This document shows positions 1 through 35,332 of a stretch of DNA of 35,521 bases, one piece after another. The notes beneath the pieces were generated by a model that saw only the letters and a program-made list of their open reading frames with translations, was not told the origin of the DNA and ran no database searches. How positions within the stretch are numbered: position 1 is the stretch's first letter; each line of letters opens with the position of its first letter. This DNA is from an uncultured Mediterraneibacter sp. Its GTDB lineage: Bacteria > Bacillota > Clostridia > Lachnospirales > Lachnospiraceae. The position numbers and the translations under genes were made by a program. The DNA is taken from assembly GCA_944383695.1 (NCBI GenBank), contig CALWQP010000032.1:1-35521 (forward strand), read 5' to 3'.

Positions 1-8
1 AGCTTGCC

Positions 9-104
9 TTACGCGCATTTGATAATGGAGACAATCACGCTTTCTCCGCTGTCATATTTACTTGTCAAGGTACAACCGCCTTTTGCTTCTTCAACATCAT
101 TTTT
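9..104 (-). pseudogene. C-terminal coding-like fragment of a small unknown protein
   Basis: Read on the minus strand, these bases give 31 codons ending in TAA. The composition is protein-like and includes the stretches DVEEAKGGCTLTSKYDSGE and VIVSIIKCA. There is no credible start: an in-frame TGA lies directly upstream at 107-105, next to a run of six A residues, so loss of one A would open the frame. I do not recognise the protein. It could be the tail of a decayed accessory gene continuing the region left of the window, or a chance open frame. Confidence 0.25.
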
Positions 105-304
105 TCAAGTCTCCCTTTTTGTATAAATTGCACAAAAAAGGAACAACCCGAAGTCACTACTTCAAGTTGATCCTAGAACCCGCTAAATTTTTTTATTCTG
201 GAAATTTTGACAGCACAAAAAGACCTTTTTCCGTTTATCAGATGAAGACAGACAAGGACTTTCTTTTTGCGTGCTTTTTTATCCGGCAACGCAGACAGAT
301 ATGA
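105..304. other. Non-coding, AT-rich, unassigned
   Basis: About 200 bases rich in T-runs. A plus-strand frame crosses it (62-304) but has no ribosome-binding site and low-complexity Phe/Leu/Lys composition, so I do not call it a gene. A lone TTGACA at 207-212 has no matching -10. Nothing else is visible. Confidence 0.4.
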
Positions 305-334
305 CCCCACACATGCCTGTGCGGCTCTTTTTTT
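305..334 (+). terminator. Probable intrinsic terminator
   Basis: CCCCACA pairs with TGTGCGG around the loop CATGCC (one mismatch), followed by CTCTTTTTTT. It would close a plus-strand transcript entering from the left and insulates the Rrf2 gene. Confidence 0.5.
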
Positions 335-344
335 GGGAATGTAT

Positions 345-368
345 ACCACATAACGGCAGTTATGTGGT
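345..368. promoter_or_regulatory. Perfect 10-bp inverted repeat upstream of the Rrf2 gene
   Basis: ACCACATAAC at 345-354 is matched exactly by GTTATGTGGT at 359-368 across the 4-base loop GGCA. It lies about 130 bases before the Rrf2-family start codon and no U-tract follows, so it is more likely an operator dyad or RNA hairpin than a terminator. Rrf2 proteins commonly bind dyads and regulate their own genes, so autoregulation is a reasonable inference, not shown. Confidence 0.5.
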
Positions 369-500
369 TAAATGATACCCGAGAGGTTGGATATAAATAA
401 TGGCGGCCGTTCCGCGACCGGTTCATTGAGGGTGCGATGCCCGATATTCTTCCTGCTCTACAGAGAAAAAGAGGCTATCGCTACAGAAAGGAAAGGAACT

Positions 501-1037
501 ATGCAGTTGAAACTGACGACGGACTATGCTATCCGCACTCTGCTGTACCTGGCGGAGAACAAAGGAATCGTGCCTATTGCCGAAGTTGCGGGGGCGATGT
601 CCATACCTGAAAAATACCTGAACCGCATAGGCCTGATACTGCGCGACGCCGGGCTGATCATGACTCACCGCGGGCAGTACGGCGGGTACAGCCTGGGCAG
701 GCCGCCGGCGGATATACGGCTCTACGACGTCGTTCGGCTGATGGAAGGCACTGTCGCCCTCAACCGATGTCTGGAAGAAGACGTCTACTGCGGTCTGGGC
801 GCGGAGCGGTACTGCACCGTACACAAGTGCTACTCAGTGATGCAGAGGAAGTGGGAAAATTTTCTTAGATACGTCACGATAGAAGAACTGCTCGGAGAGA
901 TGAGCGAGGAGGAGATCGAAAAGAGGATCGATCATCATTGCCCCCGGAGCAGGGAAGAAAGCCGGCAGCGTTCAGAAAAAGCCGGAAGAGAGGGCGGAAG
1001 CACTGGTGTGCTGAGGAAACAGGAAAGGCGGATATAG
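501..1037 (+). CDS. Rrf2-family transcriptional regulator
   Basis: A 178-residue winged-helix regulator of the Rrf2 (IscR/NsrR/CymR) family. The N-terminus, LKLTTDYAIRTLLYLAE, and the wing segment with THRGQYGGYSLGRP are typical of the family. Four cysteines fall in a cluster reading C-x6-C-x7-C-x4-C at about residues 91-111, compatible with an Fe-S cluster as in IscR or NsrR, although the spacing is not exactly that of either. The last 35 residues are an Arg/Glu-rich tail longer than usual. The ATG at 501 was chosen because GAAAGGAA lies just upstream and the protein then begins at the normal family N-terminus. Its TAG stop is directly followed by the ATG of the next gene, so the two are probably translationally coupled. 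It may sense redox, iron or NO and control the surface locus downstream; that is inference from position. Confidence 0.88.
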   Translation: MQLKLTTDYAIRTLLYLAENKGIVPIAEVAGAMSIPEKYLNRIGLILRDAGLIMTHRGQYGGYSLGRPPADIRLYDVVRLMEGTVALNRCLEEDVYCGLGAERYCTVHKCYSVMQRKWENFLRYVTIEELLGEMSEEEIEKRIDHHCPRSREESRQRSEKAGREGGSTGVLRKQERRI

Positions 1038-1529
1038 ATGAAACAGAGAAAAAGAGTGCTTCTTCTGTCCGGGATGGCGGCGCTGATCGTGCTGGCTGCG
1101 GGAGCCGGGATCTATACATATATGCGGTACGGTTCCCCGCCCGGTAAGGAAAGCACATCCGGCAGTGAGATAGAATCGGGTGACAAAGAGAGCGTCTCTT
1201 CGGAGACGCCTTCCAAGACAGAATACACAGAAGAGGAGAAGGCGCTCGTTGAATCCCAGACCGGAGTTACCGTGGCGGACGACGGCGTTATGCATGTGGA
1301 TCTTGGAACCATTATGGCGGAAGAGGAATCAGTAAACATCAAAAGAGAGGAGGCCTACAGCCTTGCCCTGGAAAGTCTGGGAGAAGGGGCAAAGATCGAG
1401 TCGGCAAGCATCCAGGAACATGAGGAAACAAAGTACTGGGTGGTGCGGGCTATCAAGGGAGATGAATCCTGGCAAATTTGGCTGAACGCAGACAATGGAG
1501 AAGAATTTATTAAACAGAAAGACGGATAG
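1038..1529 (+). CDS. Membrane-anchored PepSY-like protein
   Basis: A 163-residue protein with a basic N-terminus and one hydrophobic segment at about residues 7-28 (LLLSGMAALIVLAAGAGIY), then a Ser/Glu-rich linker and an acidic extracellular domain. The last 70 residues (EEAYSLALESLG ... YWVVRAIKGDESWQIWLNADNGE) look like a PepSY-type fold, a domain found in peptidase propeptides and as a stand-alone extracellular binding or inhibitor module. The start abuts the Rrf2 stop. The next gene begins 28 bases after its own stop behind a near-perfect AAAGGAGGTGA site, so it probably belongs to the surface locus. No lipobox Cys is seen; the hydrophobic segment more likely acts as a membrane anchor. 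Function unknown. Confidence 0.75.
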   Translation: MKQRKRVLLLSGMAALIVLAAGAGIYTYMRYGSPPGKESTSGSEIESGDKESVSSETPSKTEYTEEEKALVESQTGVTVADDGVMHVDLGTIMAEEESVNIKREEAYSLALESLGEGAKIESASIQEHEETKYWVVRAIKGDESWQIWLNADNGEEFIKQKDG

Positions 1530-1557
1530 CCGCAGCGCGGAAAGGAGGTGAGAGAAG

Positions 1558-4500
1558 ATGAAAAGAGACAGAAGAAAGAGAAGAAGAGACAGAAATCTGT
1601 GCCTCAGGGCACTGGCCACACTGGTGATTGCGGCCACCCTCCTGGCGGGACTGGACGTATCGCTTCTGGAATCTGTATTCGCCCAGGAAAAAAGCGGATA
1701 CACGGTGGAAGTCACTTACACAGCAGACAAAAGCCAGGCGGTCCTGAAAGGCAACAGGGATTCCCTCAGTACCGGGATCACTTTAGGAGAGTTGAAGGAT
1801 AAAGATGGAAACACCTACGACCCTTCTGATTTTGAAACAACGGTCACGGCCAACGGAACCTATACATACACACTGACTTATAAGGAGACGGCGGCCCAGA
1901 CCGGAAACGAGCTGGATAAAGAGGAGAAGATCGAAGTAAAAGTAGATCAGATCGCGTCCGGGACAGCGTTGATCGGTTCTCAGGAAACGGCAGGCGGAGC
2001 AGACAGCCAGACCGTGTCTGGAACAACCGGATCAGCCGATCCAACGGGCACATCTCAGAATGAGACTGGAATATCCGGTGAGACTCAGGGAGAGGCGCCG
2101 TCCGTAGTAGCACTCAGCACACTGCTGGCGGATCAGAACAAGGCTGCCAATGCGGCTCAGACGAAAGATATATACCTCTACGCGGGGGAAGCAATATCAC
2201 AGAGACTCTCCAGCGAGCCGTTTGTATTCTCGGGCGGTGAATTAAACGCTCAGACAGCTCCGCAATACAATAGTTATCCCGGCGTGGATAAAAATGCGGA
2301 ACAAAGAGAGTTCAGTCACGCAGCGTTTGTTTATCTTGACGGTGGCACTGCAACAAAGGATTTACCTTATACTATAACAGGGCTGTATTATTACAGCAGC
2401 GCAGGAGCATGGTACTACACTACAGGAGGCAGCGGGGGTTCCCAGGGCGGGGACTACGGCAACATATCCGCAGCTTACCACCTGCCTGATAATGTGGAGA
2501 TCCGGCTGTACTACAGCATTGGAAATGAAGGAGAGCATGATCTCGTTAATACGATCTCTCGGAGTACATGGAATCTTTCCAATGATCTGGCTGATGGCAC
2601 AACCAGGTTAAAAAAAGGAACAAAAGTCGTATTTGAGTTAAGCCTTAATTCCCTTTGGCATTATGGATATGTAACTGCTCAGAACCAGGACGGCACGAAG
2701 CATTATTACGTCCTGCGAAGATCAGGGGAGCGTGCCGTGGACAAAGGAACTCTGGATACAAAGTTTGGAGCGAACAACTGGACGGATGCAGAACTTGTGG
2801 ATGAGAATACTTCACGATACAGAGTGACGTTTACTATGCCGGGCAACAATGTGACGGTCAGCGCGACTTCGGAAAACTGGAGCAGCGGCAGCCGCCAGAT
2901 GTTCGGAATAGCTATTACGCAAAATCCAACCAATGATCTTAACAATGTTCAGGCGTTCGAGCGAGGAGCTACAAGATTTTACCTTACATCCCGCGGAGGT
3001 ACAACGTGGCAGGACACAGGAGGTCAGACCGGCACGATAACAACGAACGCAAGTACCAGGGAGTCGGCATTTGATTACAGCAGCGGGAGTCAGCAAGTGG
3101 GTGGATTCGGTAATCTTACCAGCGCACCGATAACGGGCCGGCCCTTTGCCATGCTGGATACCGCTTACAGTAGAAACGACCTCGGACCAGCCCCTCAGAC
3201 GTATAAATATTACATTCAGGAATCTTCTTACTACCTGGGAGACGCGGTGGGAAGCGGACCGAATGCGAGCAAGGGGAAGATGAGTGACCAAGAGGTGGTC
3301 TGGAGCCCATATAATACTAATACCAAAGCAACAATACCTGTCGGGGAATACGATCCGGGAAGAGTTCTTTCATTCCGAATCGAGGACTCAAGGCATAAAG
3401 ACAGGAGAAGTGCCGAGAATTACCGCTATATAGCGTACTCTCTGGATATAGATGTATACTATGGAGCCTTTGGAAGCGGGGACTTTGAGCGCTATACACT
3501 GACGCTTAGAAATGATACCAGTTCCAATACACAGGTAATGGAGCTTCCAAACGGGGCGAGAGTCATTGCCATATGCCGTAGAAACGGGGGAACTGCTTCC
3601 ATTACAGCTGCTACAGACTTCTGGGGACGGTCACTGAGGAAATATAATGGAGCAGAGCTGGGAGTCGGAACCCTTCAGCAGGATTTGAGTGAGCCGGCAT
3701 GGTATGTCTATGACATCGTAGTGGAAGGAATGACGCAGCCGTTCAAACTGACTTATAATCATGTGTCGGGAGCACAGAGTAACTACTCTGTCAATTCTAT
3801 GGACGGGGTTGTGGAAAGTAAGACAGCTTCTGCCGTTGAAGGATCAGGGGCAAGCGCCGAAAAGATCCAGGGCAGCTATCTGCATGCAATGCAGGATTCA
3901 GGCTGGACAAGAGAGCAGTGGAGACCGCTGAGAAGCGGAGACAATATCTGGGCAAAGCATGCGTTGCAAAGCGGAGCCTACGCAGGAGCTTTTGAAGTAG
4001 GACTGGAGCCTATGGAAGGGTATACGAGACCAAAGGTTACCGTGACAACCCGAACCGGCCTCAGCGGCGCAAGCGTTACTCCACAGTCAGGTGTAGATGA
4101 TCAAGGAAGATATTTATACAAGGTAGTGCTGCCACAGTCACCCGACAGTGACTCAGGTTCTTTGTCAGGAAATATCAATATATCGGCAGCGCCAATTACA
4201 TTCCGGGTGGAGTACCGCTCGACGGCAGAGGGCGGAGCTTATTTCCCAACGAGTGGATCCAATATAGACCTGACATACGGAGGAACGGAAAACTATGTCC
4301 TGACATTACAGCGACAAACTCAGACTGATCTTATCAAGGGATACAAAATGCAGGTCCGTTATGGCGGAAATAAGCTTCTGGATATAGCTGCTCCTTCTGA
4401 TAACGGGTCGGCCGGGGCCTACTGGCTGCCGGGAGATGTCGTGAACGTAAGAGATATTTATCAGAAACTTGACGACGCAGGAGTTCTCACATCCGTGGAT

Positions 4501-6753
4501 GACCCTTCCAATCCGCCTACTTATTACATCGTACTGGTTCCTGAGACGGCGAGCGCTACGGAAGGTGCCTACACAGACAGAATTGCTTACTCAGTTTATA
4601 CACAGACCGGTTGGAGCCAGGGGTATGCAGATGGACAGAGCCCGACTTATGATGACGCAGGTTTTCAGTACACTCAGGGCTTTATAGGAGGCTTTCTCGG
4701 AAGTCAGGTCACATTTGGCGGCTACCGGCGTGAATATACCACAGACGGCAAAACATTTGTTTTAGACATGCAAAAGAGTATAACGCAGGGGACTGCGGCC
4801 CATAACCTGGAAGTGGGGCGTTTCTATTATCTGCGGACGGCAGATGTGAACATACGAATACCGGATGAACTGAAGAACGCGGCTGATTTTGCCACCACGC
4901 GCGCCGAGATCGATCAGTGGAATGCCGACCACAGCGCTGATACTTACGTCGGACTTACTACCAGTGATCCTGATATAAGTCATATTGTGGATTTAAGCAG
5001 TATCACCCTGCCGGGAACGGCAAATAGTGGCAGCCTGCAACTTTCAGGTTGGAGGATAGTAGATCCTGATAACGCAGCTGACAGCTATGTTTTCGACAGT
5101 ACAGCCACCAGCTTGAACCTCTGTACGATGGGAGGAAGAAACGGCACCGGGGCAGCGCTGTGGGATAAGATCTTCTCAAGCAGCGGAAGCGGAAGCATAA
5201 CGATTGAACCCTACTATGTGGACGCCACTAAGCCCATCACGCTGACTGAAGACGGCGGTATGAGCACTGATGCAGCATCGCAGGTGAATGTGTACGAAGA
5301 TAAAGGAACATATACTCTGTCCGCAGATTTCTATATGGCTGGAACCGTGAATGAGAATTCGACAGTAACCTATGCGGTCTACGCGCAGCAACAGGGCTAT
5401 TCTCTGTGGGGACTCAATGAAAGAGGATCCGTGAACCTGAGCGACGTGGACAATACCCTCAGCCGAACGAATACAGCAGATTCGTCGAATATATTTTACG
5501 GCAGACTGAAAGGATCTCAACTCTCTGTGGATACAGATACGGTAACTGGCAAAAATGCTACAAAGATTACCCTGACATTTTCCGGGATATCAACTGTGGG
5601 CGCTACCGGAATAGACTACCGGATTTACCTGTGGAATTCGGCGAATGGAGAAAAAACGAACAGTGTAAGCAGCATACCGAAATCTTTTAATGATGACGGG
5701 GCTATAAGTGGAAGTTTTACATCTGATGATTATCCCTGCAGCTGGCAGGAACTTCATGTGATTCCGAAAGTAACGACAGACTATTCCAGTTCAGGCATTA
5801 CTATAACAGATACACCTAAGTCAGCGCTTTTCTACGAAAGGACCAGCTTCACAGTTACGGGTACGTTCGAGCTGGAGGGAAGCGCGAAAGAAACCTTTGA
5901 GTATCTTAATGATAATAACCTGATCCATGTTGCGCTGTATAAGCAGAACCCGCCGGATTCCGGCGCCACTGATTCAACAAACACCAAAGTTTTTGACGCC
6001 TGGGCGAATGACACCGGGGCGGTCGCAGATCATCAGGGGAAAGTGTCAAGTCCATCCATCGATCCGGTTGCGGGAGATTCATACGCCTTTACTGTAAGCT
6101 TTACGATAGAACAGCTGAGCTCCATTACAAAGAACTGGGATGACAACGCAAATTACCGTATTTATGTATGGACAGGCAGCAACGTGATGCCGTCAGCCGG
6201 GGAAAGCGGTATAACCGGCACGCTGGGAGCGAACAGAAGCAAGATTGAATATAACAAAAAAATCGACACGATTCCGAGCGCGACAACAACAATGACACTT
6301 GTCCTTGGAACTGAGTTTAATAAGATGATCAGCTATCCGAAGGAGATCACAATGTCCGACAATAAGGATCAGCATATCTACTCAGGTACGCAGGAGATCA
6401 TCCTGAACAAGGTCAGCGACACGGTACAGCAGCCCGATCCCGATCCCGGAGTGACAGTGAAGATACGGGAGCTTATAGACAGAGAGTCATTTAATCTTGA
6501 GAGAAAAAGAGGCAGTACCACTGATTATATCGCTCTGCAGGGATTCCTGGGGGATCAGCCATCAGGTGGTCAAACGACCATATTCAGTCAAAGTGGAGTA
6601 GTAGGAACCGTGAAGTTTAAGACAGACACGCAACAGAACCAGAACCGGCTTCAGATGTACTTCAAGTCAAAAGACGTAGTAACAGATCTGGTAGACGCGG
6701 GAGCCTTCACAGGGCAGATCACCTTTGAGTTTTCACAGGGAAGCGGAAATTAA
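1558..6753 (+). CDS. Giant secreted multi-domain surface protein with C-terminal WxL-like module
   Basis: A 1731-residue exported protein. An Arg/Lys-rich start and a hydrophobic core at about residues 17-40 ending in VFAQ form a signal peptide. Next come an Ig-like domain (about 45-130), a Ser/Thr/Gly-rich linker (about 130-190) and a long beta-rich region with FTMPGNNVTVSA (as in bacterial surface repeats). Two related modules follow, at about 1243-1390 and 1422-1560, each ending near YRIYLW or YRIYVW. The last 150 residues carry ISYPKEITMSDN and end FTGQITFEFS, which aligns with the end of the 202-residue protein at 7178-7786. There is no LPXTG tail or C-terminal membrane helix, so retention probably relies on partner proteins. 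It has very few cysteines. The site AAAGGAGGTGA precedes the ATG. Likely role: adhesin or structural part of a surface complex; the ligand cannot be told. Confidence 0.85.
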   Translation: MKRDRRKRRRDRNLCLRALATLVIAATLLAGLDVSLLESVFAQEKSGYTVEVTYTADKSQAVLKGNRDSLSTGITLGELKDKDGNTYDPSDFETTVTANGTYTYTLTYKETAAQTGNELDKEEKIEVKVDQIASGTALIGSQETAGGADSQTVSGTTGSADPTGTSQNETGISGETQGEAPSVVALSTLLADQNKAANAAQTKDIYLYAGEAISQRLSSEPFVFSGGELNAQTAPQYNSYPGVDKNAEQREFSHAAFVYLDGGTATKDLPYTITGLYYYSSAGAWYYTTGGSGGSQGGDYGNISAAYHLPDNVEIRLYYSIGNEGEHDLVNTISRSTWNLSNDLADGTTRLKKGTKVVFELSLNSLWHYGYVTAQNQDGTKHYYVLRRSGERAVDKGTLDTKFGANNWTDAELVDENTSRYRVTFTMPGNNVTVSATSENWSSGSRQMFGIAITQNPTNDLNNVQAFERGATRFYLTSRGGTTWQDTGGQTGTITTNASTRESAFDYSSGSQQVGGFGNLTSAPITGRPFAMLDTAYSRNDLGPAPQTYKYYIQESSYYLGDAVGSGPNASKGKMSDQEVVWSPYNTNTKATIPVGEYDPGRVLSFRIEDSRHKDRRSAENYRYIAYSLDIDVYYGAFGSGDFERYTLTLRNDTSSNTQVMELPNGARVIAICRRNGGTASITAATDFWGRSLRKYNGAELGVGTLQQDLSEPAWYVYDIVVEGMTQPFKLTYNHVSGAQSNYSVNSMDGVVESKTASAVEGSGASAEKIQGSYLHAMQDSGWTREQWRPLRSGDNIWAKHALQSGAYAGAFEVGLEPMEGYTRPKVTVTTRTGLSGASVTPQSGVDDQGRYLYKVVLPQSPDSDSGSLSGNINISAAPITFRVEYRSTAEGGAYFPTSGSNIDLTYGGTENYVLTLQRQTQTDLIKGYKMQVRYGGNKLLDIAAPSDNGSAGAYWLPGDVVNVRDIYQKLDDAGVLTSVDDPSNPPTYYIVLVPETASATEGAYTDRIAYSVYTQTGWSQGYADGQSPTYDDAGFQYTQGFIGGFLGSQVTFGGYRREYTTDGKTFVLDMQKSITQGTAAHNLEVGRFYYLRTADVNIRIPDELKNAADFATTRAEIDQWNADHSADTYVGLTTSDPDISHIVDLSSITLPGTANSGSLQLSGWRIVDPDNAADSYVFDSTATSLNLCTMGGRNGTGAALWDKIFSSSGSGSITIEPYYVDATKPITLTEDGGMSTDAASQVNVYEDKGTYTLSADFYMAGTVNENSTVTYAVYAQQQGYSLWGLNERGSVNLSDVDNTLSRTNTADSSNIFYGRLKGSQLSVDTDTVTGKNATKITLTFSGISTVGATGIDYRIYLWNSANGEKTNSVSSIPKSFNDDGAISGSFTSDDYPCSWQELHVIPKVTTDYSSSGITITDTPKSALFYERTSFTVTGTFELEGSAKETFEYLNDNNLIHVALYKQNPPDSGATDSTNTKVFDAWANDTGAVADHQGKVSSPSIDPVAGDSYAFTVSFTIEQLSSITKNWDDNANYRIYVWTGSNVMPSAGESGITGTLGANRSKIEYNKKIDTIPSATTTMTLVLGTEFNKMISYPKEITMSDNKDQHIYSGTQEIILNKVSDTVQQPDPDPGVTVKIRELIDRESFNLERKRGSTTDYIALQGFLGDQPSGGQTTIFSQSGVVGTVKFKTDTQQNQNRLQMYFKSKDVVTDLVDAGAFTGQITFEFSQGSGN

Positions 6754-6765
6754 GGAGGCGGATAA

Positions 6766-7077
6766 ATGATAAGGAAAAGCATATTGGCGGTACTGATCTG
6801 TCTGAGCCTCCTGATGATGCCGGCAGGCATGCCAAGAGCAGAGGCCGCGGCATCAGACCCCCAGGGGCAGACACAGTTTGTGTACCGCGGTACCGGAAAG
6901 ACAGAGATAGATAAAGGTCCGGGCATCACCACGTCGGGAACACAGGCTGTCAAGACAGGAGATACGACGGATATAGGAAACTGGCTAATGATTTTATCAG
7001 GCTCGGCACTGGTTTTGTTCCTGATCGGAGCAGCAAAGCGCAAAAAGCATGAGAGCGAAGAAATCAGCAGTTTGTAA
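6766..7077 (+). CDS. Small cell-wall-anchored surface protein (KTGD sorting tail)
   Basis: A 103-residue protein that is little more than an export signal and an anchor. It has a signal peptide (residues 1-28, ending AEAAA), about 30 extracellular residues, the motif VKTGD at 62-66, a hydrophobic helix at about 72-90 and the basic tail KRKKH. This is the architecture of a sortase substrate with an LPXTG-variant signal in which Leu-Pro is replaced; KTGD-type tails are common in Clostridia. It starts 12 bases after the giant gene stops, behind TAAGGAGG, so it is almost certainly co-transcribed. In Csc/WxL clusters of lactobacilli a short LPXTG protein (CscD-like) accompanies the WxL proteins, and this gene fills that slot. 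No sortase gene lies in the window. Confidence 0.8.
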   Translation: MIRKSILAVLICLSLLMMPAGMPRAEAAASDPQGQTQFVYRGTGKTEIDKGPGITTSGTQAVKTGDTTDIGNWLMILSGSALVLFLIGAAKRKKHESEEISSL

Positions 7078-7177
7078 CAGATATGGGAAAGCCCCATCAC
7101 GAACATGGTCCTGAGCGCGAAAGCGCCTGGATATATAGAAACCTGAAAAAGGAAAAAACAAAAAAGGAGAAAAAGAG

Positions 7178-7786
7178 ATGAGAAACAAGAAACTTTACGC
7201 AGCAGTATTAGTTGGAACAATGGCAGTAGGTATGATGGGAAGCACAGTTATGGCAGATCCCACAGGTGACACGACAGTTACTTACAACAGTGGTACAATC
7301 ACACCTCCGGATCCGGTAAACCCTGATACGGCAGATGAGGACCCGAATAACTGGGCAGTTACTTATGACAGAAGTATTATGCTGGCCGATTCCAATATAG
7401 GAACAGGAGCAAGCGAGGTTCAGGCAGCAGGAGCTAAGATCAGCTTTGAAGTAAAGCAGAAAGTAGCAGGAGCTGATGGAGTATATGATATTAAGGAAGG
7501 GAACATCGGCCCTAACGGACTTAGCGTTCAGACAACAGCAGATGATGAGTGGACAGCCGGCACCAATATCGCAATGGATGGAACACAGGGGACAGTAGAG
7601 ATGCAGCTTGCTAACAGTACGAATTCAACCCCGGCAGATCTGCTGGCACCGGGTGAAGAAATCGTAAATCTAACAACAGACAGAGCTTCTGATAATGGAT
7701 TTGCCGCACTTACAGAGGGAAGTGATGCGAAAGACGGTATCACTTATACCAAGACAATCACATGGACAGTTAGCAAAAAGGTATAA
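7178..7786 (+). CDS. Small secreted protein with WxL-like C-terminal motif
   Basis: A 202-residue exported protein: signal peptide (about 1-26, ending TVMA), then a Thr/Asp-rich beta-sheet protein. The C-terminus reads YTKTITWTV, close to the distal motif of WxL domains (YxxxLTWxL) with conservative Ile and Val replacements. WxL domains bind peptidoglycan non-covalently. The segment AVTYDRSIMLADSN matches MISYPKEITMSDNK of the giant protein in pattern, so both probably share one domain type. Codon choice is skewed to A/T-ending and GCA/GGA codons unlike its neighbours, suggesting high expression. The site AAAGGAG lies 9 bases before the ATG. A 17-bp stem-loop follows the gene. It could be the abundant matrix or shell subunit of the complex. 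Match to canonical WxL is partial. Confidence 0.75.
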   Translation: MRNKKLYAAVLVGTMAVGMMGSTVMADPTGDTTVTYNSGTITPPDPVNPDTADEDPNNWAVTYDRSIMLADSNIGTGASEVQAAGAKISFEVKQKVAGADGVYDIKEGNIGPNGLSVQTTADDEWTAGTNIAMDGTQGTVEMQLANSTNSTPADLLAPGEEIVNLTTDRASDNGFAALTEGSDAKDGITYTKTITWTVSKKV

Positions 7787-7833
7787 TTGTCACATTACAA
7801 TCAGACAAAAGAAGTAATACAACGATATGAAAT

Positions 7834-7870
7834 AGCCGAACAGGGAGCAGACTCTGCTCCCTGTTCGGCT
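7834..7870 (+). other. Perfect 17-bp stem-loop after the WxL-like gene
   Basis: Bases 7834-7850 (AGCCGAACAGGGAGCAG) pair without mismatch with 7854-7870 around a 3-base loop. The bases after it are ATGAAAAG, not a T-run, so it is a poor intrinsic terminator. It sits between the WxL-like gene and the membrane-protein genes, where it could protect the 3' end of upstream mRNA or mark a processing site, giving the secreted subunit more product than the genes downstream. Confidence 0.75.
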
Positions 7871-7909
7871 ATGAAAAGAAAAATAAGTAAAGAATAAGGA
7901 GGAAACGAT

Positions 7910-8674
7910 GTGGAATGGTCGGTAAAAGAACAGGAATATTCTGCCGTATATAAGGACAGAAAGGGCGGAACCTGGGGATACCTGACGGGAAAAGAGCTGC
8001 TGGAGCGCTACCCCAATGGCGGCTACCGCATTGTGGCGGATATGCGAAGGAAAGAAGGCGGGAAGGAGGATCTTCTTCTGAGGAGAGAAGAGTCTGTATG
8101 GCGCTTGTCGCCCTATCAGAGGAAAAAGCGTTTTGAAAGGCCCGTGGGTTATATTGACGTCAGCACGGACGAGGAGCAGGACGCCTATGTACGCATTGTA
8201 AAGCCCGCCCTGTTTCGTGGGCTTATCCTGCCGATTCTGGTGATCCTCTTTCTGATCGGAGGTATACTGACCGGCTGGTGGCTCTCCCATCGGAACGAAG
8301 TGCCCGGTCTTGACGAGACGGCAGTGTCTTATCGGGTAGAGGGATTTGAGAATACGGATCCCGACTCCATTACTGTTCCGGGGATCAGTGTGCTGAGGAT
8401 GGACGCGGGACAGCAGACAGTGGAATATCCGCTGATCAACCCTGAGGGGAATACTTGCTACATGAAATACACGATCCGAGAGACAGAAACCGGAGAAGTC
8501 CTCTACGAATCAGGACTGATCGAACCGGGAGCCGCAGTGCTTACATTTGACCTGAATCAGACATTTGAAGCGGGAACTTACGACATACTCGTTAAAGTAG
8601 ATACATCTGATATTAATGATTATACGGTAGAGCTCAATGGGGCGGAGATCCCCGCGGAACTCATAGTGGAATAA
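7910..8674 (+). CDS. Single-pass membrane protein with extracellular NPEGNTCY domain (copy 1)
   Basis: A 254-residue protein with a cytoplasmic N-terminal domain of about 100 residues rich in Arg/Lys/Trp, one membrane helix at about 104-125, and an extracellular domain of about 130 residues. The extracellular part holds NTDPDSITVPG (148-158), NPEGNTCY (177-184), LYESGLIEPG and GTYDILVKV, a beta-sandwich-like pattern. It has no signal peptide, so topology is N-in/C-out. The start is GTG at 7910, 7 bases after AAGGAGG; the overlapping ATG at 7908 stops after five codons. The next gene is a clear paralog. A cytoplasmic domain joined to an extracellular domain suggests coupling of the surface complex to the inside, or assembly; I do not recognise a named family. 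Confidence 0.82.
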   Translation: MEWSVKEQEYSAVYKDRKGGTWGYLTGKELLERYPNGGYRIVADMRRKEGGKEDLLLRREESVWRLSPYQRKKRFERPVGYIDVSTDEEQDAYVRIVKPALFRGLILPILVILFLIGGILTGWWLSHRNEVPGLDETAVSYRVEGFENTDPDSITVPGISVLRMDAGQQTVEYPLINPEGNTCYMKYTIRETETGEVLYESGLIEPGAAVLTFDLNQTFEAGTYDILVKVDTSDINDYTVELNGAEIPAELIVE

Positions 8675-8694
8675 ACGGGAGGATTATAGAATAT

Positions 8695-9456
8695 ATGCAG
8701 TACAGATACGAAGAACAGGGGAATGAGAACCGGGTCTGGAAAGACCGTAGAAAACACAGTTGGAAGTGTATAGACCAGAAAGCATTTATAGAGCACACGA
8801 AAGGAAAGGCGGTCATCTGCGCGGATGCGGGAACAAAGGGGAAAAAGACAGAGGACGTCCTGACAGACGGGGAACACACCCTTCCCCTTTCTGTCACCAG
8901 ACAAAAACCGGGCGCCTTCCAGAAGATCGTGGGATATATTCCCTGTACTGACGGGGAGGAGAGCGGATATGTGCGTGTGCTTGGAGTGGCTGCCGGCAAG
9001 ATCATCGCTCTTTTGATCGTGCTGGCAGTCCTGGTTGCAGGAGGAGTATTATTCTGGATGATGAACCGGCAGGAGGGGCCGGATCTGGACAGGGCCGCCA
9101 TCGCCTACGAGATGCCGGAAGGCCTGGTCAATACAGATCCCGAGTCCATCACCATGCCGGGATACAGTCTCCTGACAATGAGCAACTCGGATGGTACAGT
9201 CCACGTTCCTCTGCTCAACCCAGAGGGGAACACATGCTACTTCGTCTATACGATCTCTCTGGCGGACAGCGGAGAGATTCTCTATGAGAGCGGCTATATC
9301 GAGCCGGGAAGTGCGGTGCCTGAGTTTGAGCTGAACCGGACGCTCGACCCGGGGACATATGACATCAAAGTGGATGTGGCGGCATGGGCTATTGAAGACT
9401 ACACGGAACCTCTCAACGGAGGCAGTATTGAGGCGGAATTACAAGTGGAGGAATAA
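8695..9456 (+). CDS. Single-pass membrane protein with extracellular NPEGNTCY domain (copy 2)
   Basis: A 253-residue paralog of the preceding product with the same order: cytoplasmic domain (about 1-98), membrane helix (about 102-122) and extracellular domain. Shared landmarks are NTDPESITMPG, NPEGNTCY (175-182), LYESGYIEPGSAV and GTYDIKVDV. The extracellular halves are much more alike than the cytoplasmic halves, which differ in length of individual segments and in sequence, so the copies may have diverged in what they contact inside the cell. The gene begins 20 bases after the first copy ends, behind GGGAGGAT, and is followed 2 bases later by the lipoprotein gene. The pair reflects an old tandem duplication. 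Confidence 0.82.
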   Translation: MQYRYEEQGNENRVWKDRRKHSWKCIDQKAFIEHTKGKAVICADAGTKGKKTEDVLTDGEHTLPLSVTRQKPGAFQKIVGYIPCTDGEESGYVRVLGVAAGKIIALLIVLAVLVAGGVLFWMMNRQEGPDLDRAAIAYEMPEGLVNTDPESITMPGYSLLTMSNSDGTVHVPLLNPEGNTCYFVYTISLADSGEILYESGYIEPGSAVPEFELNRTLDPGTYDIKVDVAAWAIEDYTEPLNGGSIEAELQVEE

Positions 9457-9458
9457 GG

Positions 9459-10022
9459 ATGATAAAAGAGATAAAATATATTCTCTGTCTGTGTATGGGC
9501 GTAATTGCTTTCACCGTGGGATGTACAGGATCCGCCTCGGATGAGAAGGCTGAGAATGTGGCGATTCTTGAAGTGGGGGAGACAACTTATCCGATAGAAG
9601 GTACAGAAGTGACACTCAGTCTCAAAGACGCGTATGAGACAGAGGAACTAAGCCCCTCCACTCCCTCCGGCTATTTTTACTATTATGAAGATAAGGAAGA
9701 GTACTACTATTATGTAATCGCCGGAACATTGGAGAATCCTTCCCAGACAGTACTGTCTCCATCAGACTTTGGGGCGGCGTCGTGGAATGGAAGGAAAGAG
9801 TACGAGACGAAAGTAGTTATGGAAAACAGCAGCGGAGCCACATTCATGGAAAATGATGATGAGACTGCGGGGGAAGAAATCCGAGTCTATATCCTCGTCA
9901 TGGTAAAGGACGGGGAGGAGACGCCTGACCAAATCGAGTTGTATTATAATGAAGGACTCTCCGAAAAAAACGGGGATGAACTGTGGGACAGAGGGGTCAG
10001 GATAGATCCCTCGTATTCATGA
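9459..10022 (+). CDS. Predicted lipoprotein, 3' end abuts an IS fragment
   Basis: A 187-residue protein with a short hydrophobic leader and a lipobox-like FTVGC, Cys at 22 (the -3 position is Thr, so the box is imperfect), then a Ser/Asp linker and a domain rich in Tyr and acidic residues (YFYYYEDKEEYYYYVIAGTLEN). The start lies 2 bases after the previous stop, with GTGGAGGAATAAGG as ribosome site, so it is the last gene of the surface locus. The stop falls within about 15 bases of the edge of a truncated transposase, so the final residues may be altered or read from the insertion. The domain recalls extracellular lipoproteins of the DUF4352/DUF5067 kind, but I cannot confirm that. Confidence 0.7.
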   Translation: MIKEIKYILCLCMGVIAFTVGCTGSASDEKAENVAILEVGETTYPIEGTEVTLSLKDAYETEELSPSTPSGYFYYYEDKEEYYYYVIAGTLENPSQTVLSPSDFGAASWNGRKEYETKVVMENSSGATFMENDDETAGEEIRVYILVMVKDGEETPDQIELYYNEGLSEKNGDELWDRGVRIDPSYS

Positions 10023-10890
10023 TCATCGCTGTGCTCAATGCGTCCTTTTGCCTGGGGTGTTTTAGCAAAAATCATATCGACACCAAATTCATGCATAGAC
10101 CGTCCGAACTGGGTCAAATGTACGGTTTTTCCAGCAATAAGTTCATCTATCGTCAGTTTCCCGGTCTTAGGGGAGCGGAAGATCGTATGGTTGTCTGAAT
10201 AAACAGTCTGAGGAATACCGAAATCTGTACAGCATTGCCGCAAGGTTTCCAGGTAGCCATAAAGGCATTCATTTTGTGTAAGGAAGAGACCGACAACCTG
10301 TCCGGAAGCATCATCGATGGCACCATGGAGGGTGTATTTAACAGAACCGCCGAACCATTCATAGGGGGTGGCGTCAATCTGGATCAGCTGTCCGGGATGA
10401 GGCTTTCGTTTCCGTCGGTGGGTGCGTTGTCGGATTTTTTTCTTTTTGGGGCTTTCAAAACCTGCATTTTTTAGTATACTGGAAAGAGCAGAATAGGAAA
10501 GGGAGATTCCGAAATCTGCTAAGAGTATATCTTTGAAATGGAGGAAGTTGACCCCAGACAATTCCGGGCGGGAATAAATCTGAAGGACAGCTTCCTTCGT
10601 TTCATCAGAAACAGCGTGAGCAGGTTTTCTACCAGTATTTTTATGGATAAGGGATTGAGCAGCGCCAGAAGTAAGGACTCCTTTCTTTAAACGTGTAATC
10701 TGGCGGATAGAAAGCCCTAAGAGCTCAGCAGCCTGTTGTCTTGTAATGGACTTGTCGATGAAGCTGTTGATAATCTTAAATGTTTTTAGTTGCTTTTGAA
10801 ACAATGTAATTTTACCTTCTTTCATAGTTTTATAGTTTCTCAAAAAGTGACATTATCGCAAGAGAATCCTAAGGTGACATTATCATAAGT
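10023..10890 (-). mobile_element. Truncated ISNCY-like insertion sequence
   Basis: One end keeps two direct copies of GTGACATTATC (10847-10857 and 10874-10884), 27 bases apart and upstream of the transposase, which look like transposase-binding end repeats. The other end is missing: the transposase reading breaks off just past its catalytic Glu and meets the 3' end of the lipoprotein gene. No target-site duplication can be identified. The remnant lies between the surface locus and the ileS promoter. Confidence 0.65.
10037..10825 (-). pseudogene. Transposase, ISNCY-like, C-terminally truncated
   Basis: About 263 residues remain from the ATG at 10825; a TTG at 10843 is the alternative start. 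The N-terminus is a helix-turn-helix region (ITRQQAAELLGLSIRQITRL), then a basic linker and a DDE/integrase-core domain. The catalytic triad can be read as Asp in QIDATPYEWFGG, Asp in VYSDNHTIF and Glu in QAKGRIE. Full-length relatives continue for well over 100 residues past that Glu, whereas here the match stops at once and the frame runs on into unrelated sequence antisense to the lipoprotein gene. It is therefore probably inactive, though a compact core remains. ISNCY is my best family guess; IS481-like is the alternative. Confidence 0.75.
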
Positions 10891-10917: not shown

Positions 10918-10947
10918 TTGACGTTTCCCTGGTTGGGCGCTTATAAT
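10918..10947 (+). promoter_or_regulatory. Promoter of the ileS T-box leader
   Basis: TTGACG at 10918-10923 and TATAAT at 10942-10947 with an 18-base spacer. Transcription would begin near 10955, just ahead of the T-box structure. The IS remnant ends only about 30 bases upstream. Confidence 0.75.
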
Positions 10948-10954
10948 AGCCATG

Positions 10955-11262
10955 TATATAAATTCACAGAGCAAAGGCGATAACGGAGACAGTAGAAACC
11001 TTTCGAACGCCACAGCGAGCCGGGGATGGTGCAAGCCCGGTGCAAGTAGCAGGTTTTCGAATATCACTCCCGAGCCGCAGCATCTGAAACGAGAGGCAGC
11101 CGCGTTTTGACGAAGGCGGTGACAGACCCGCACAGTACGCATACGCCGCCGGAGTAGGAGCTGACGATTGTCCCGCGTTAAGGGACGCCATATACGGAGC
11201 GCTTATATCAAACAAAAAGCTCTAAGTATGTTGTAACAGGTGGTTAAAACGAGAGAACAGCA
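10955..11262 (+). promoter_or_regulatory. T-box riboswitch (isoleucine) upstream of ileS
   Basis: The leader is about 300 bases with a T-box stem I pattern. A purine-rich start (AGAGCAAAGGCGATAACGGA) leads to a specifier loop in which AATATCACTCCCGAG places ATC (Ile) at 11063-11065. Near the 3' end GGTGGTTAAAACG contains TGGT at 11241-11244, able to pair with the ACCA end of uncharged tRNA-Ile. The part after TGGT departs from the usual ACCGCG. A strong terminator follows, so uncharged tRNA-Ile should favour read-through into ileS. Confidence 0.85.
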
Positions 11263-11296
11263 GGCTTTCGTCCTTTTACGGACGAGAGCCTTTTTT
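11263..11296 (+). terminator. T-box-controlled terminator
   Basis: GGCTTTCGTCC pairs over 11 positions with GGACGAGAGCC around a 6-base loop, followed by six T residues. It is the off-state of the T-box leader. Confidence 0.88.
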
Positions 11297-11382
11297 CTCC
11301 GTTTTGATTGAAAGCTCCAGGTGAGAGCGCGCCCACGATGGATGTATCCTCAGCTCGGGCCATCACAGAAAGGAAAATCAGT

Positions 11383-14300
11383 ATGTATAAGAAAGTTCCC
11401 ACCGACATGAATTTTGTCGGCAGAGAAAAAGAAGTTGAAAAGTTTTGGGATGACAACCACATCTTCGAGAAGAGTATTGAAGAAAGGAAGGACTGTCCGG
11501 ATTACATTTTCTATGACGGGCCTCCGACAGCGAACGGAAAACCCCACATCGGTCATGTGCTGACCCGCGTCATCAAGGACATGATCCCGAGATACCGCAC
11601 TATGAAAGGCTATATGGTGCCGAGAAAGGCGGGCTGGGACACCCATGGACTCCCGGTAGAGCTGGAAGTGGAAAAGTCTCTCGGCCTGGATGGAAAAGAG
11701 CAGATCGAAGAATACGGTCTTGAGCCGTTCATTGACAAATGTAAAGAAAGCGTCTGGAAATACAAAGGCATGTGGGAGGATTTCTCCGCCACAGTCGGTT
11801 TCTGGGCTGATATGGAGCATCCTTATGTCACCTACCACAATACATTTATCGAGTCCGAGTGGTGGGCGTTAAAGCAGATATGGGAGAAAGGCCTGCTGTA
11901 CAAGGGCTTCAAGATCGTTCCCTACTGCCCGCGCTGCGGGACGCCTCTTTCCTCGCAGGAAGTGGCGCAGGGATACAAGGACGTCAAAGAGCGTTCAGCA
12001 GTCGTAAGATTTAAAGTAAAAGGCGAGGATGCATACATCCTTGCATGGACGACTACGCCATGGACGCTGCCCTCCAACCTGGCGCTCTGCGTGAACCCGG
12101 AGGAAGATTATGCAAAAGTCAGGGCAGCGGACGGCCATACTTATTACATGGCGTGCGCCCTCCTGGACACGGTGCTCGGCAAACAGGCCGAAGAAGGGAA
12201 GCCGGCATACGAGGTGCTGGAGACTTATAAAGGAACAGACTTAGAGGGCAAAGAGTATGAGCCTCTCTTCCAGTGCGCTGCGGACGCTGCCGCAAAGCAG
12301 AATAAACAAGCATTCTATGTGACATGCGATACCTACGTCACACTGACAGACGGTACCGGAGTCGTGCACATCGCCCCGGCGTTTGGTGAAGATGACGCAA
12401 ATGTAGGAAGAAAATATGATCTTCCGTTTGTTCAGCTTGTAGATGAAAAAGGAAATATGGCGGATTCCACGCCGTTTGCAGGACTGTTTGTGAAAAAAGC
12501 AGACCCGGAAGTGCTGAAGGATCTGGATGCGAGAGGACTGCTCTATGACGCGCCGAAGTTCGAGCACAGCTACCCCCACTGCTGGAGATGTGATACCCCG
12601 CTCATTTACTATGCGCGTGAGTCATGGTTTATCAAAATGACTGCGGTAAGAGACGACCTGATCGCGAACAACAACACGATCAACTGGATCCCGGAGAGCA
12701 TCGGCAAAGGCCGGTTCGGCGACTGGATTGAGAATGTCCAGGACTGGGGCATCAGCCGCAACCGTTACTGGGGAACCCCGCTGAACATCTGGGAGTGCGA
12801 GTGCGGCCACATGCACTCCATCGGGAGCATCGAGGAGCTGAAGAAGATGTCCGATAACTGCCCGGATGACATTGAACTGCACCGTCCGTATATCGACGCG
12901 GTGACGATCAAGTGCCCGGAGTGCGGAAAAGAGATGCACCGTGTACCGGAAGTGATCGATTGCTGGTTTGACAGCGGGTCCATGCCATTTGCGCAGCATC
13001 ACTATCCCTTTGAGAACAAAGAGCTGTTTGAAGAGCAGTTCCCGGCGGATTTTATTTCCGAGGCAGTGGACCAGACAAGAGGATGGTTCTACTCCCTGCT
13101 GGCAATCTCCACGCTGATCTTCAACAAGGCTCCGTACAAAAATGTGATCGTCCTGGGACATGTGCAGGACGAGAACGGTCAGAAGATGAGCAAGTCCAAG
13201 GGAAATGCAGTCGATCCCTTTGAGGCTCTTGAGACATACGGTGCGGATGCGATCCGCTGGTACTTCTATGTCAACAGCGCTCCGTGGCTGCCGAACAGAT
13301 TCCACGGCAAAGCGGTCATTGAGGGACAGAGGAAGTTCATGGGCACATTGTGGAACACGTATGCGTTCTTTGTGCTCTATGCGAATATTGACAACTTTGA
13401 CGCCACAAAATATACAATGGAATATGATAAACTGTCCGTGATGGATAAGTGGCTGCTCTCCAAGATGAACACCATGGTAAAAGAAGTGGACGATAATCTC
13501 GGAAACTACCGTATCCCGGAGGCGGCGAGAGCGCTCCAGGAGTTTGTGGACGATATGAGCAACTGGTATGTGCGGAGGAGCCGCGAGCGTTTCTGGGCAA
13601 AAGGCATGGAGCAGGATAAGATCAATGCATACATGACATTGTATACAGCCCTTGTCACAGTATCCAAGGCAGCAGCGCCCATGATTCCGTTTATGACAGA
13701 AGAAATCTACCGGAATCTTGTGTGCAGCATTGACAAAGACGCGCCGGAGAGCATCCATTTGTGCCTCTTCCCGGAGGTTTATGAGGACCAGATCGACAAA
13801 GAGCTGGAAGATAACATGGACCATGTCCTGAAACTGGTGGTGATGGGCCGCGCCTGCAGAAATGCGTCCAATATCAAGAACCGTCAGCCTGTGGGACAGA
13901 TGTTCGTCAAGGCAGGTTTTGTCCTTCCGGAATTCTATCAGGATATCGCAGCCGATGAACTGAATGTGAAGAATGTTAAATTTACAGAGGATGTACGAGA
14001 CTTTACTTCATATACATTTAAGCCACAGTTAAAGACAGTTGGACCAAAATATGGTAAAATGTTAGGTGGCATCAAAGCCGCCCTTGATGCCTTGGACGGA
14101 AATGCCGCCATGGATGAGGTCAATGAGACAGGCGCCCTGAAGCTGGATGTGAATGGGCAGGAGATCACGCTCTTCAAAGAAGACCTGCTGATTGACACCG
14201 CGCAGATGGAAGGCTATGTGTCCGAGAATGACAACGGCATCACCGTCGTCCTTGATACGAACCTGACGCCGGAGCTTCTTGAGGAAGGCTTTGTCCGCGA

Positions 14301-14538
14301 GATCATCAGCAAGATCCAGACGATGCGAAAAGAAGCCGACTTCGAGGTCATGGACCGGATCCGCGTGACATATAAGGGAGCAGAGAAAGCAGAGGCAGTC
14401 TTTGAGAAGCACGCGGCAGAGATCAGCGGAGAAGTGCTCGCTGACGAAGTTGTCAAGGCAGAGCCGTCAGGCTTCGTAAAGGAGTGGAAGGTTAATGGTG
14501 AAGCGGTCGCAATGGGCGTGGAAAAGGAAGGAAAATAA
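11383..14538 (+). CDS. ileS: Isoleucyl-tRNA synthetase (IleS2 type)
   Basis: Charges tRNA-Ile with isoleucine in the cytoplasm. The product has 1051 residues, near the usual length of the long (IleS2) form rather than the roughly 920-940 of the E. coli form. The class I signatures are HIGH at residues 55-58 (PPTANGKPHIGHVL) and KMSKS at 601-605. A CP1 editing domain lies between them with TTPWTLPSN and GTGVVHIAPAFGEDD, and an anticodon-binding domain follows. The ATG at 11383 was preferred over an in-frame ATG at 11308 because AGAAAGGA lies 8 bases upstream and the N-terminus then matches the family; the extra 25 codons overlap the leader. It is controlled by the T-box. IleS2-type enzymes are often less sensitive to mupirocin, as a family tendency. 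Confidence 0.96.
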   Translation: MYKKVPTDMNFVGREKEVEKFWDDNHIFEKSIEERKDCPDYIFYDGPPTANGKPHIGHVLTRVIKDMIPRYRTMKGYMVPRKAGWDTHGLPVELEVEKSLGLDGKEQIEEYGLEPFIDKCKESVWKYKGMWEDFSATVGFWADMEHPYVTYHNTFIESEWWALKQIWEKGLLYKGFKIVPYCPRCGTPLSSQEVAQGYKDVKERSAVVRFKVKGEDAYILAWTTTPWTLPSNLALCVNPEEDYAKVRAADGHTYYMACALLDTVLGKQAEEGKPAYEVLETYKGTDLEGKEYEPLFQCAADAAAKQNKQAFYVTCDTYVTLTDGTGVVHIAPAFGEDDANVGRKYDLPFVQLVDEKGNMADSTPFAGLFVKKADPEVLKDLDARGLLYDAPKFEHSYPHCWRCDTPLIYYARESWFIKMTAVRDDLIANNNTINWIPESIGKGRFGDWIENVQDWGISRNRYWGTPLNIWECECGHMHSIGSIEELKKMSDNCPDDIELHRPYIDAVTIKCPECGKEMHRVPEVIDCWFDSGSMPFAQHHYPFENKELFEEQFPADFISEAVDQTRGWFYSLLAISTLIFNKAPYKNVIVLGHVQDENGQKMSKSKGNAVDPFEALETYGADAIRWYFYVNSAPWLPNRFHGKAVIEGQRKFMGTLWNTYAFFVLYANIDNFDATKYTMEYDKLSVMDKWLLSKMNTMVKEVDDNLGNYRIPEAARALQEFVDDMSNWYVRRSRERFWAKGMEQDKINAYMTLYTALVTVSKAAAPMIPFMTEEIYRNLVCSIDKDAPESIHLCLFPEVYEDQIDKELEDNMDHVLKLVVMGRACRNASNIKNRQPVGQMFVKAGFVLPEFYQDIAADELNVKNVKFTEDVRDFTSYTFKPQLKTVGPKYGKMLGGIKAALDALDGNAAMDEVNETGALKLDVNGQEITLFKEDLLIDTAQMEGYVSENDNGITVVLDTNLTPELLEEGFVREIISKIQTMRKEADFEVMDRIRVTYKGAEKAEAVFEKHAAEISGEVLADEVVKAEPSGFVKEWKVNGEAVAMGVEKEGK

Positions 14539-35244: not shown

Positions 35245-35332
35245 GGAGAAATACTCAAGAGGCTGAAGAGGCGCCCCTGCTAAGGGTGTAGGTCGGGAAA
35301 CCGGCGCGAGGGTTCAAATCCCTCTTTCTCCG
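35245..35332 (+). tRNA. tRNA-Ser (anticodon GCT)
   Basis: Eighty-eight bases form a class II tRNA: acceptor stem GGAGAAA/TTTCTCC with discriminator G, D-arm, anticodon stem CGCCC/GGGTG around loop CTGCTAA with anticodon GCT at 35279-35281, a long variable arm and T-arm GAGGGTTCAAATCCCTC. It reads AGC/AGU Ser codons. CCA is not encoded. A terminator follows. Confidence 0.96.

Follow-up and report, generated by a model that had tools for sequence, protein, structure and literature searches.

The described systems closest to the locus analyzed here are the chaperone-usher pili (type 1, P and archaic Csu/CupE), the WxL/Csc clusters, which combine a small and a large WxL protein with WxLIP (DUF916-DUF3324) and a short LPXTG protein, and the TasA/TapA/SipW fibres of Bacillus; for the upstream region of related loci, the nearest counterparts are the invertons of gut bacteria. 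In excerpts from the literature, the original account of Csc clusters views them as complexes that might serve carbohydrate use (PMC1534035), the functions proposed for WxL/Csc include binding to the wall and to the host or carbohydrates (PMC9772566, PMC1534035), and reports of WxL sequences are nearly confined to Bacilli (PMC9772566). Our locus is an operon of eight genes in one direction, encoding, in order, an Rrf2-family regulator, a PepSY-like protein, a giant secreted protein, a 103-residue wall-anchored protein, a 202-residue secreted protein, membrane proteins A and B, and a lipoprotein. It occupies positions 501-10022 of a 35,521-base stretch of DNA (hereafter, the window) that is one whole contig (C32) of the 2.84 Mb genome of an uncultured Mediterraneibacter sp.; the closest named loci are in Mediterraneibacter assemblies. 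We favor, with moderate confidence, the interpretation that this operon encodes a phase-variable, usher-less donor-strand-exchange pilus of a single-membrane bacterium.

In the proposed model, the 202-residue protein would be the shaft pilin, an immunoglobulin-like (Ig-like) domain that depends on a neighbor for one strand, with an N-terminal tail, GxTxVxY, that would insert as a strand into the next subunit during the proposed polymerization. The giant ends in the same domain and, for this reason, is placed at the tip, like FimH, where it would display its N-terminal 1500 residues, possibly for adhesion. The 103-residue protein, in which a similar tail is joined to a sortase signal, would cap the base by donating a strand to the last subunit and would be fixed to the wall. 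The paired membrane proteins, with their NPEGNTCY signature, would serve as membrane-tethered chaperones that hold the subunits leaving the Sec channel, with no usher. In sister operons, a neighboring tyrosine recombinase would flip an invertible segment whose promoter would drive transcription.

The operon resembles the chaperone-usher pili in the predicted pilin fold, in a large protein that ends in the shaft domain as a tip protein does, in an N-terminal tail that is the presumed donor strand, in a chaperone-like Ig domain and in a separate base protein. It differs from them in having a duplicated, membrane-tethered chaperone-like protein with a single Ig domain, whereas the known chaperone is a soluble, two-domain, periplasmic protein; in a base that consists of a sortase-signal peptide and lacks a pilin domain; and in a giant of roughly 1000-2600 residues in the fuller operons compared. 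No usher gene was seen (no usher model was searched, and none is expected in a single-membrane cell). Compared with a sortase-built (Spa-type) pilus, the shaft pilin lacks a sorting signal, as does the giant, and the cluster encodes no pilus sortase, the four sortase matches in the genome all being on other contigs. We class the operon, with moderate confidence, as a variant of the donor-strand-exchange fibres. No name for such a fibre was found in the open-licence literature searched. If the interpretation is correct, Clostridia have a fibre that is built by strand exchange without an usher and has at its end proteins that rank among the largest the genome encodes, with many copies under DNA-inversion control, which would give a handle on the attachment of Lachnospiraceae to mucus or to neighbors.

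Predicted folds and shared segments of the operon proteins

Rrf2 is the only operon protein above a curated Pfam or NCBIfam cut-off; the giant, the small protein, the membrane proteins and the lipoprotein match no family at cut-off, and neither do the distant small proteins and giants that were tried, except for an LPXTG anchor just at cut-off in the Granulicatella locus (L068). The model of the 202-residue protein has a predicted local distance difference test (pLDDT) score of 88-97 per ten-residue block from residue 41 onward, and all 50 VIA matches listed in the structure comparison are chaperone-usher pilins or tip pilin domains; a groove open to a donor strand could not be made out from this comparison. 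The two fold programs agree on a pilin-type fold for this protein, and, when a profile built from related Clostridial proteins was searched against the PDB, the only matches at E<=1 were fimbrial pilins and AbrB. A 25-sequence profile in which the signal peptides had been kept was rejected: it matched mostly antibody chains, through those peptides, along with CupE (0.0036) and CsuA/B (0.08).

The domain of the small protein recurs at the C-terminus of the giant. An hhalign comparison of 14 small proteins with 12 giant C-termini gave 94.5% (E 7.6e-8, 133 columns), and the mature parts of the broader families gave 44% and 62%. The likeness is plain in some loci (E 1e-20 in L022, 6e-5 in L111); single pairs, often too diverged, reached z >=4 in 8 of 24 loci and z 1.6 in the window, such pairwise values being too noisy to serve as counts. 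The same noise affects the first scan for large-small pairs, which returned 23 of 58 loci, including several whose pairs are clearly unrelated paralogues, and is not used as a count. The giant itself had no PDB sequence match at E<=1. If the pilus interpretation is correct, it would explain many "hypothetical" secreted proteins that end in AGxYxGTVTFxV.

In an alignment of 91 small-protein sequences, two parts are conserved to the same extent, at 2.52 bits per column each: the GxTxVxY tail at residues 30-38 and the final strand at residues 187-199. The linker has 1.34 and the domain 1.43. The tail lies outside the folded domain and yet is conserved like the last strand, which is the pattern expected of a donor strand. 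A similar segment is present in the anchor protein. Across 14 loci in which both genes are separate reading frames (L103, with an anchor from gap translation, and L107, with an anchor cut by the contig end, being left out), the same-locus mean score between the anchor and the small-protein tail was 36.5, against 26.7 for pairs from other loci and 19.7 (standard deviation 4.3) for 78 other small-protein windows. The 95th percentile of the control was exceeded by 12 of the 14 pairs, and none of 10,000 re-pairings reached the observed mean; the window's own pair scores 29, under the mean, and ranked 8 of 14 in a separate comparison.

The anchor protein of the window has little sequence between the tail and the sorting signal, so that it is most simply read as a strand-donating base; longer anchors are encoded in L068 and L114. 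An earlier note on this DNA had described it as wall-anchored, and a short anchored protein is indeed encoded there, with a sorting signal that reads KTGD rather than strict LPXTG. Against the Csc LPXTG family NF053819, it scores 20.1 bits (cut-off 47), and its counterpart in the Granulicatella locus scores 30.0 bits. The same argument, from a helper that shares the donor-strand sequence of the main subunit, has been made for TapA and TasA, as excerpted from PMC9674648.

Membrane protein A is predicted to consist of a cytosolic domain, one transmembrane helix and an Ig-like ectodomain (pLDDT 90.1, predicted template modelling score 0.56), the ectodomain being after the helix, not before it. 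Chaperone-usher chaperones account for 24 of the 50 VIA matches listed, and the ectodomain resembles domain 1 of the FimC/PapD chaperones, which suggests a chaperoning role. The A-type and B-type genes fall mostly into separate clades.

Relationship to the WxL/Csc clusters

The earlier note had regarded the locus as a divergent WxL/Csc-like complex. The parts list is indeed the same: single-pass membrane proteins, a short protein anchored to the wall, and two secreted proteins, one large and one small, that have their C-terminal domain in common. The operon proteins differ from that system in having no established WxL or DUF916 homology, in the C-terminal position of the membrane protein ectodomain and its two copies, in the Rrf2 gene and, often, in control by a recombinase. 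The assignment of the 202-residue protein as a divergent WxL domain was not supported: PF13731 had no match in the genome at E<=0.001 and none in the operon proteins, the predicted fold is that of chaperone-usher pilins, and the two W-x-L motifs are absent, W-A-V (residues 59-61) and W-T-V (196-198) being found instead, with position 59 occupied by W in 46 and Y in 45 of the 91 aligned sequences. The paired membrane proteins, for which no DUF916-DUF3324 Pfam match was found at E<=1, could replace DUF916, as had been suggested: this fits by position and perhaps by mechanism, provided that WxLIP contributes the strand that completes the WxL sandwich, as has been reported (PMC10599100).

Profile comparisons point in the same direction. 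Against a profile of 27 WxL sequences, the domain of the 202-residue family reached 18% over 22 columns, in the last strand, and a related Clostridial family reached 24%; the comparisons of the 27 WxL sequences with the domain alone spanned 9-24%, versus 0.1-0.7% for reversed controls. WxL membership on the basis of a five-sequence profile, which had given 75% (tail and first strand) and 59% (last strand), was dropped when removal of the signal peptides left 4-6%. The solved structure 9i25, named as a WxL domain surface protein, has E 0.19 to the WxL profile and is not among the 50 matches listed for the small protein, an absence that has no bearing on the assignment. Within the taxonomic family, 3 of 299 genomes match PF13731, one of them above cut-off. 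One genome of the same family (G141; loci L146, L149, L165 and L166) encodes canonical WxL proteins above the Pfam cut-off, including one cluster with the usual Csc layout.

Two results weigh against the pilin assignment: a profile of the 202-residue family itself retrieved no pilin from the PDB, and PF13731 weakly matches 3 of the 91 small-protein relatives (best E 2.3e-4). Together with the common parts list, the weak likeness of the short protein to NF053819 and the N-terminal strand laid over the core in published WxL models (PMC9772566, in excerpt), the PF13731 matches speak for a Csc/WxL-like complex, in which the shared C-terminal domains would bind peptidoglycan and the membrane proteins would stabilize the assembly, with no fibre. 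We consider such a complex unlikely given that PF13731 has no match at E<=0.001 in the genome and profile homology is limited to the last strand, that the pilin-type fold came from both fold programs with pilin matches in an independent sequence search, and that wall binding would need no small-protein tail on the anchored protein. The operon proteins thus fall outside the WxL family by these tests but may function alike.

The anchor and the small protein share an N-terminal segment in WxL/Csc clusters too, more weakly: the same test on canonical WxL proteins placed 4 of 13 pairs above control, with 678 of 10,000 re-pairings reaching the mean, three of the pairs being nearly identical and two identical. 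Among canonical WxL clusters (L163, L164, L166, L171-L192), some short LPXTG proteins and small WxL proteins share the mature N-terminal segment, for example in L176 and L180. Far more tentatively than for the operon itself, we suggest that donor-strand-exchange pili might form a large class peculiar to Gram-positive bacteria, in which the chaperones are tethered to the membrane and a donor strand is anchored by sortase. The Clostridial form and WxL/Csc would be two branches of this class: WxL proteins would be the pilins, WxLIP would act as chaperone, and the short LPXTG protein would form the base and donate the final strand. This would provide a testable mechanism for WxL/Csc clusters; a word search found neither "donor" nor "polymer" in PMC10599100 or PMC9772566, and no "chaperone" in PMC10599100.

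Recombinase genes and inverted repeats upstream of sister operons

Two further operons in the same genome, both on contig C34, are preceded by a tyrosine recombinase gene (PF00589, 1.1e-26 and 5.5e-26), then inverted repeats, then Rrf2; the repeats are perfect, of 27 and 23 base pairs (bp), with arms 222 and 239 bases apart. From 23 operons that we chose, 3, including that of the window, had too little upstream sequence, and 20 with >=2 kilobases (kb) upstream were examined. An exact repeat pair of at least 18 bp within 3 kb upstream was found in 9 of the 20, compared with 3 of 300 random 3-kb segments, and two more operons have a pair with one mismatch, so that inverted repeats are present in 11 of 20, mostly about 215-240 bp apart. 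These repeat-bearing operons are not all independent, L007 and L008 being copies in one genome that are close to L005. Six operons (two in one genome) have exact arms of 22-28 bp, 222-241 bp apart, beside a recombinase; the layout differs in L010 (arms 1,934 bases apart) and L024 (144). A related recombinase was detected by BLAST in 8 of the 20 operons, and another integrase, by Pfam, in L024.

Related segments occur in both orientations. With the arms removed, the segment of the first C34 operon (C34a) is inverted relative to those of the second (C34b), L112, L113 and L014 (reverse scores 178-240, forward 43-58); no alignment with it was obtained for the segments of L005, L007 and L008. By 1 to 2 points, the highest-scoring promoter candidate faces the operon in C34a (TTGCCA-17-TACAAT) and faces away in C34b, L112, L113 and L014; it also faces away, by 0.5, in L005, L007 and L008. 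Each arm is palindromic in itself and the spacers are unlike between most operons; such differing spacers would keep the operon copies from recombining with each other. The two similar operons of Lachnospiraceae CE91-St61 have invertible segments with three (L007, 5289-5669) and two (L008, 5334-5669) right-hand arms, and several inversion products seem possible there.

The arrangement that defines an invertible promoter, inverted repeats beside a site-specific recombinase in both orientations, was thus found for the sister operons and not for the window copy. The window retains one arm and, next to it, a part of the segment at positions 194-344, with forward and reverse scores of 71 and 42 against C34b, 81 and 41 against L112, 80 and 41 against L014, 64 and 47 against L113, and 39 and 76 against C34a. 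The repeated sequence that takes up the rest is probably a mobile element inside the segment, which interrupts it, and probably explains why the contig ends here.

With invertons of gut bacteria, the sister operons share the tyrosine recombinase, the inverted repeats, the promoter candidate between them and a surface-gene target; the difference is that a complete surface operon of the proposed donor-strand type is targeted, one that often includes an Rrf2 gene and exists in several copies with unlike spacers. None of six terms was found in a word search of the inverton survey PMC11892184. The repeats might instead be remnants of recombinase attachment sites, or terminators, with an operon that is not phase-variable, as could be argued from the 9 of 20 operons that have neither an exact nor a one-mismatch pair, from the difference of only 0.5 to 2 points between promoter scores towards and away, and from the fact that the orientation contrast comes from comparing different operons and not from reads. 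The exact arms beside a recombinase in six operons, set against the random control, the two orientations of related segments, and the self-palindromic arms with spacers unlike between most operons make this improbable.

Conservation and distribution of the operon

A single scan of 84,980 species genomes with the membrane-protein alignment produced 143 pattern matches, of which 123 encode relatives; the best 80 were kept and represent 79 distinct loci. The order Rrf2, PepSY, giant, anchor, small protein, A, B and lipoprotein recurs, whole or partial, in Mediterraneibacter-type loci, and a core of large, small and membrane proteins with the lipoprotein (recognized partly by position or size only) is present in Dorea sp. 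D27, Lachnospiraceae CE91-St61 (twice), Claveliimonas bilis and Eubacterium callanderi; a gene for a short anchored protein is also present in Claveliimonas bilis. The Granulicatella balaenopterae locus encodes an anchor, one membrane protein, a large protein and a small protein. The co-occurrence in order anticipated by the earlier note is therefore borne out, and the operon is more than a chance assembly. No relative was found in the viral scan.

In 73 of the 79 loci (all except L008, L009, L011, L015, L019 and L020), a C-terminal strand motif was found, among genes within 6 kb, in 114 of 458 on the same strand and in 9 of 440 others, and 55 of the 73 loci had at least one such gene. The small-protein profile was derived from loci around the membrane protein, and the genome scan asked whether the family also occurs elsewhere. 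At E<=1e-6, 15 of 200 genomes of the taxonomic family match this profile, and 14 of the 15 also have the membrane protein (overall background, 25 of 299); in each of the 14 genomes that carry both, the two genes are separated by no more than about 1 kb, and 7 of 24 small-protein matches have a stop codon inside. The small-protein family thus appears, in these genomes, to be mostly absent away from membrane-protein loci. With small proteins in 5 of 58 genomes of the genus, our own included, the system is patchy.

The genome of the window has ten membrane-protein genes arranged in pairs, one pair on C32 and two each on C34 and C21, and four of the five pairs adjoin a giant and a small protein. 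The C21 locus (L105/L106) represents a second operon type, with two membrane-protein sets; ahead of the giant, it encodes a type I signal peptidase, an M23/glucosaminidase enzyme and a DivIVA-like protein, and no inverton-like repeat was seen upstream of its Rrf2 gene. That signal peptidase gene, and the published precedent of Gram-positive strand exchange with a helper sharing the donor-strand sequence (excerpts from PMC9674648, PMC10151520), would suit a TasA/TapA-like matrix fibre whose small protein exchanges strands but is released into the biofilm, the giant being a matrix protein rather than a tip adhesin, but this is quite improbable because no camelysin family was found in the window protein or among 25 of the 28 families listed for the 91 relatives, the sortase-signal protein carries the donor-like tail and the giant ends in the shared domain. 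The TasA system, to our knowledge, has neither a wall-anchored member nor a giant with the shared domain.

Operon genes and neighboring features

The seven same-direction genes from the PepSY-like protein to the lipoprotein are all present as described in the earlier note, and the gaps between them (28, 12, 100, 123, 20 and 2 bases) are mostly short, four of six being below 30 (Table 1). The gene called PepSY-like is there, with a domain score that falls short of the Pfam cut-off. The Rrf2 gene, the inverted-repeat arm and the hairpin are additions to that description.

Table 1. Features of the window relevant to the proposed surface-fibre operon
Feature	Positions	Strand	Evidence
End of repeated sequence, where left half of segment expected	1-193	.	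98% identical to own-genome contig C16 61213-61405, the last bases of C16
Segment-like sequence, orientation of copies whose best promoter candidate faces away from operon	194-344	+	Alignment scores
Inverted-repeat arm ACCACATAAC-n-GTTATGTGGT	345-368	.	Partner arm absent from window; no inverted pair in window 1-600
Rrf2-family regulator, operon gene 1	501-1037	+	PF02082 8.5e-31, 107 bits; TIGR00738 above cut-off; homologues in same place in other operons
PepSY-like membrane-anchored protein, 163 residues	1038-1529	+	PepSY 18.3 bits, Pfam cut-off 24; homologues syntenic
Giant secreted protein, 1731 residues; proposed tip adhesin	1558-6753	+	Reading frame; homologues syntenic
C-terminal domain of giant, common with 202-residue protein; proposed tip pilin domain	6310-6750	+	hhalign profile match
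Wall-anchored protein, 103 residues, KTGD sorting signal; proposed base/anchor	6766-7077	+	Reading frame; weak NF053819 match
GQTQFVYRG, donor-strand-like segment in anchor protein	6865-6891	+	Segment comparison with small-protein tail
Small secreted protein, 202 residues; proposed main pilin	7178-7786	+	Predicted model and fold matches
GDTTVTYNS (residues 30-38), conserved N-terminal tail; proposed donor strand	7265-7291	+	Column conservation, 91 sequences
19-bp hairpin in gap between small gene and membrane-protein gene	7832-7872	+	Folding of gap
Membrane protein A, 254 residues, GTG start; proposed tethered chaperone	7910-8674	+	Predicted model
Membrane protein B, 253 residues; proposed second tethered chaperone	8695-9456	+	Paralogue of A, 43% identity
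Lipoprotein, 187 residues, final operon gene	9459-10022	+	Homologues syntenic
ISNCY-family transposase frame, outside the system	9944-10843	-	NF033594 263 bits, profile positions 1-240 of 368

The start of the Rrf2 gene was picked by hand among the reading-frame options. The encoded protein has four cysteines (C-x6-C-x7-C-x4-C), a pattern that suggests a metal or Fe-S sensor, which would link the surface operon to redox or iron state. In the hairpin survey, with no shuffle control, 14 of 15 folded gaps contained a strong stem-loop between the small gene and gene A, the sequences being mostly different, and two other gaps of the window showed weak folding only. Such a hairpin would fit production of the small protein in excess over the downstream proteins.

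The ISNCY frame overlaps the end of the lipoprotein gene, so that an insertion-sequence remnant adjoins the operon. Farther downstream, a structured-looking region (10940-11300) that resembled a leader RNA is upstream of a large gene (11308-14538), which we take to encode isoleucyl-tRNA synthetase; this region matches no Rfam family at cut-off, and the only Rfam match in the window is a tRNA at 35245-35332.

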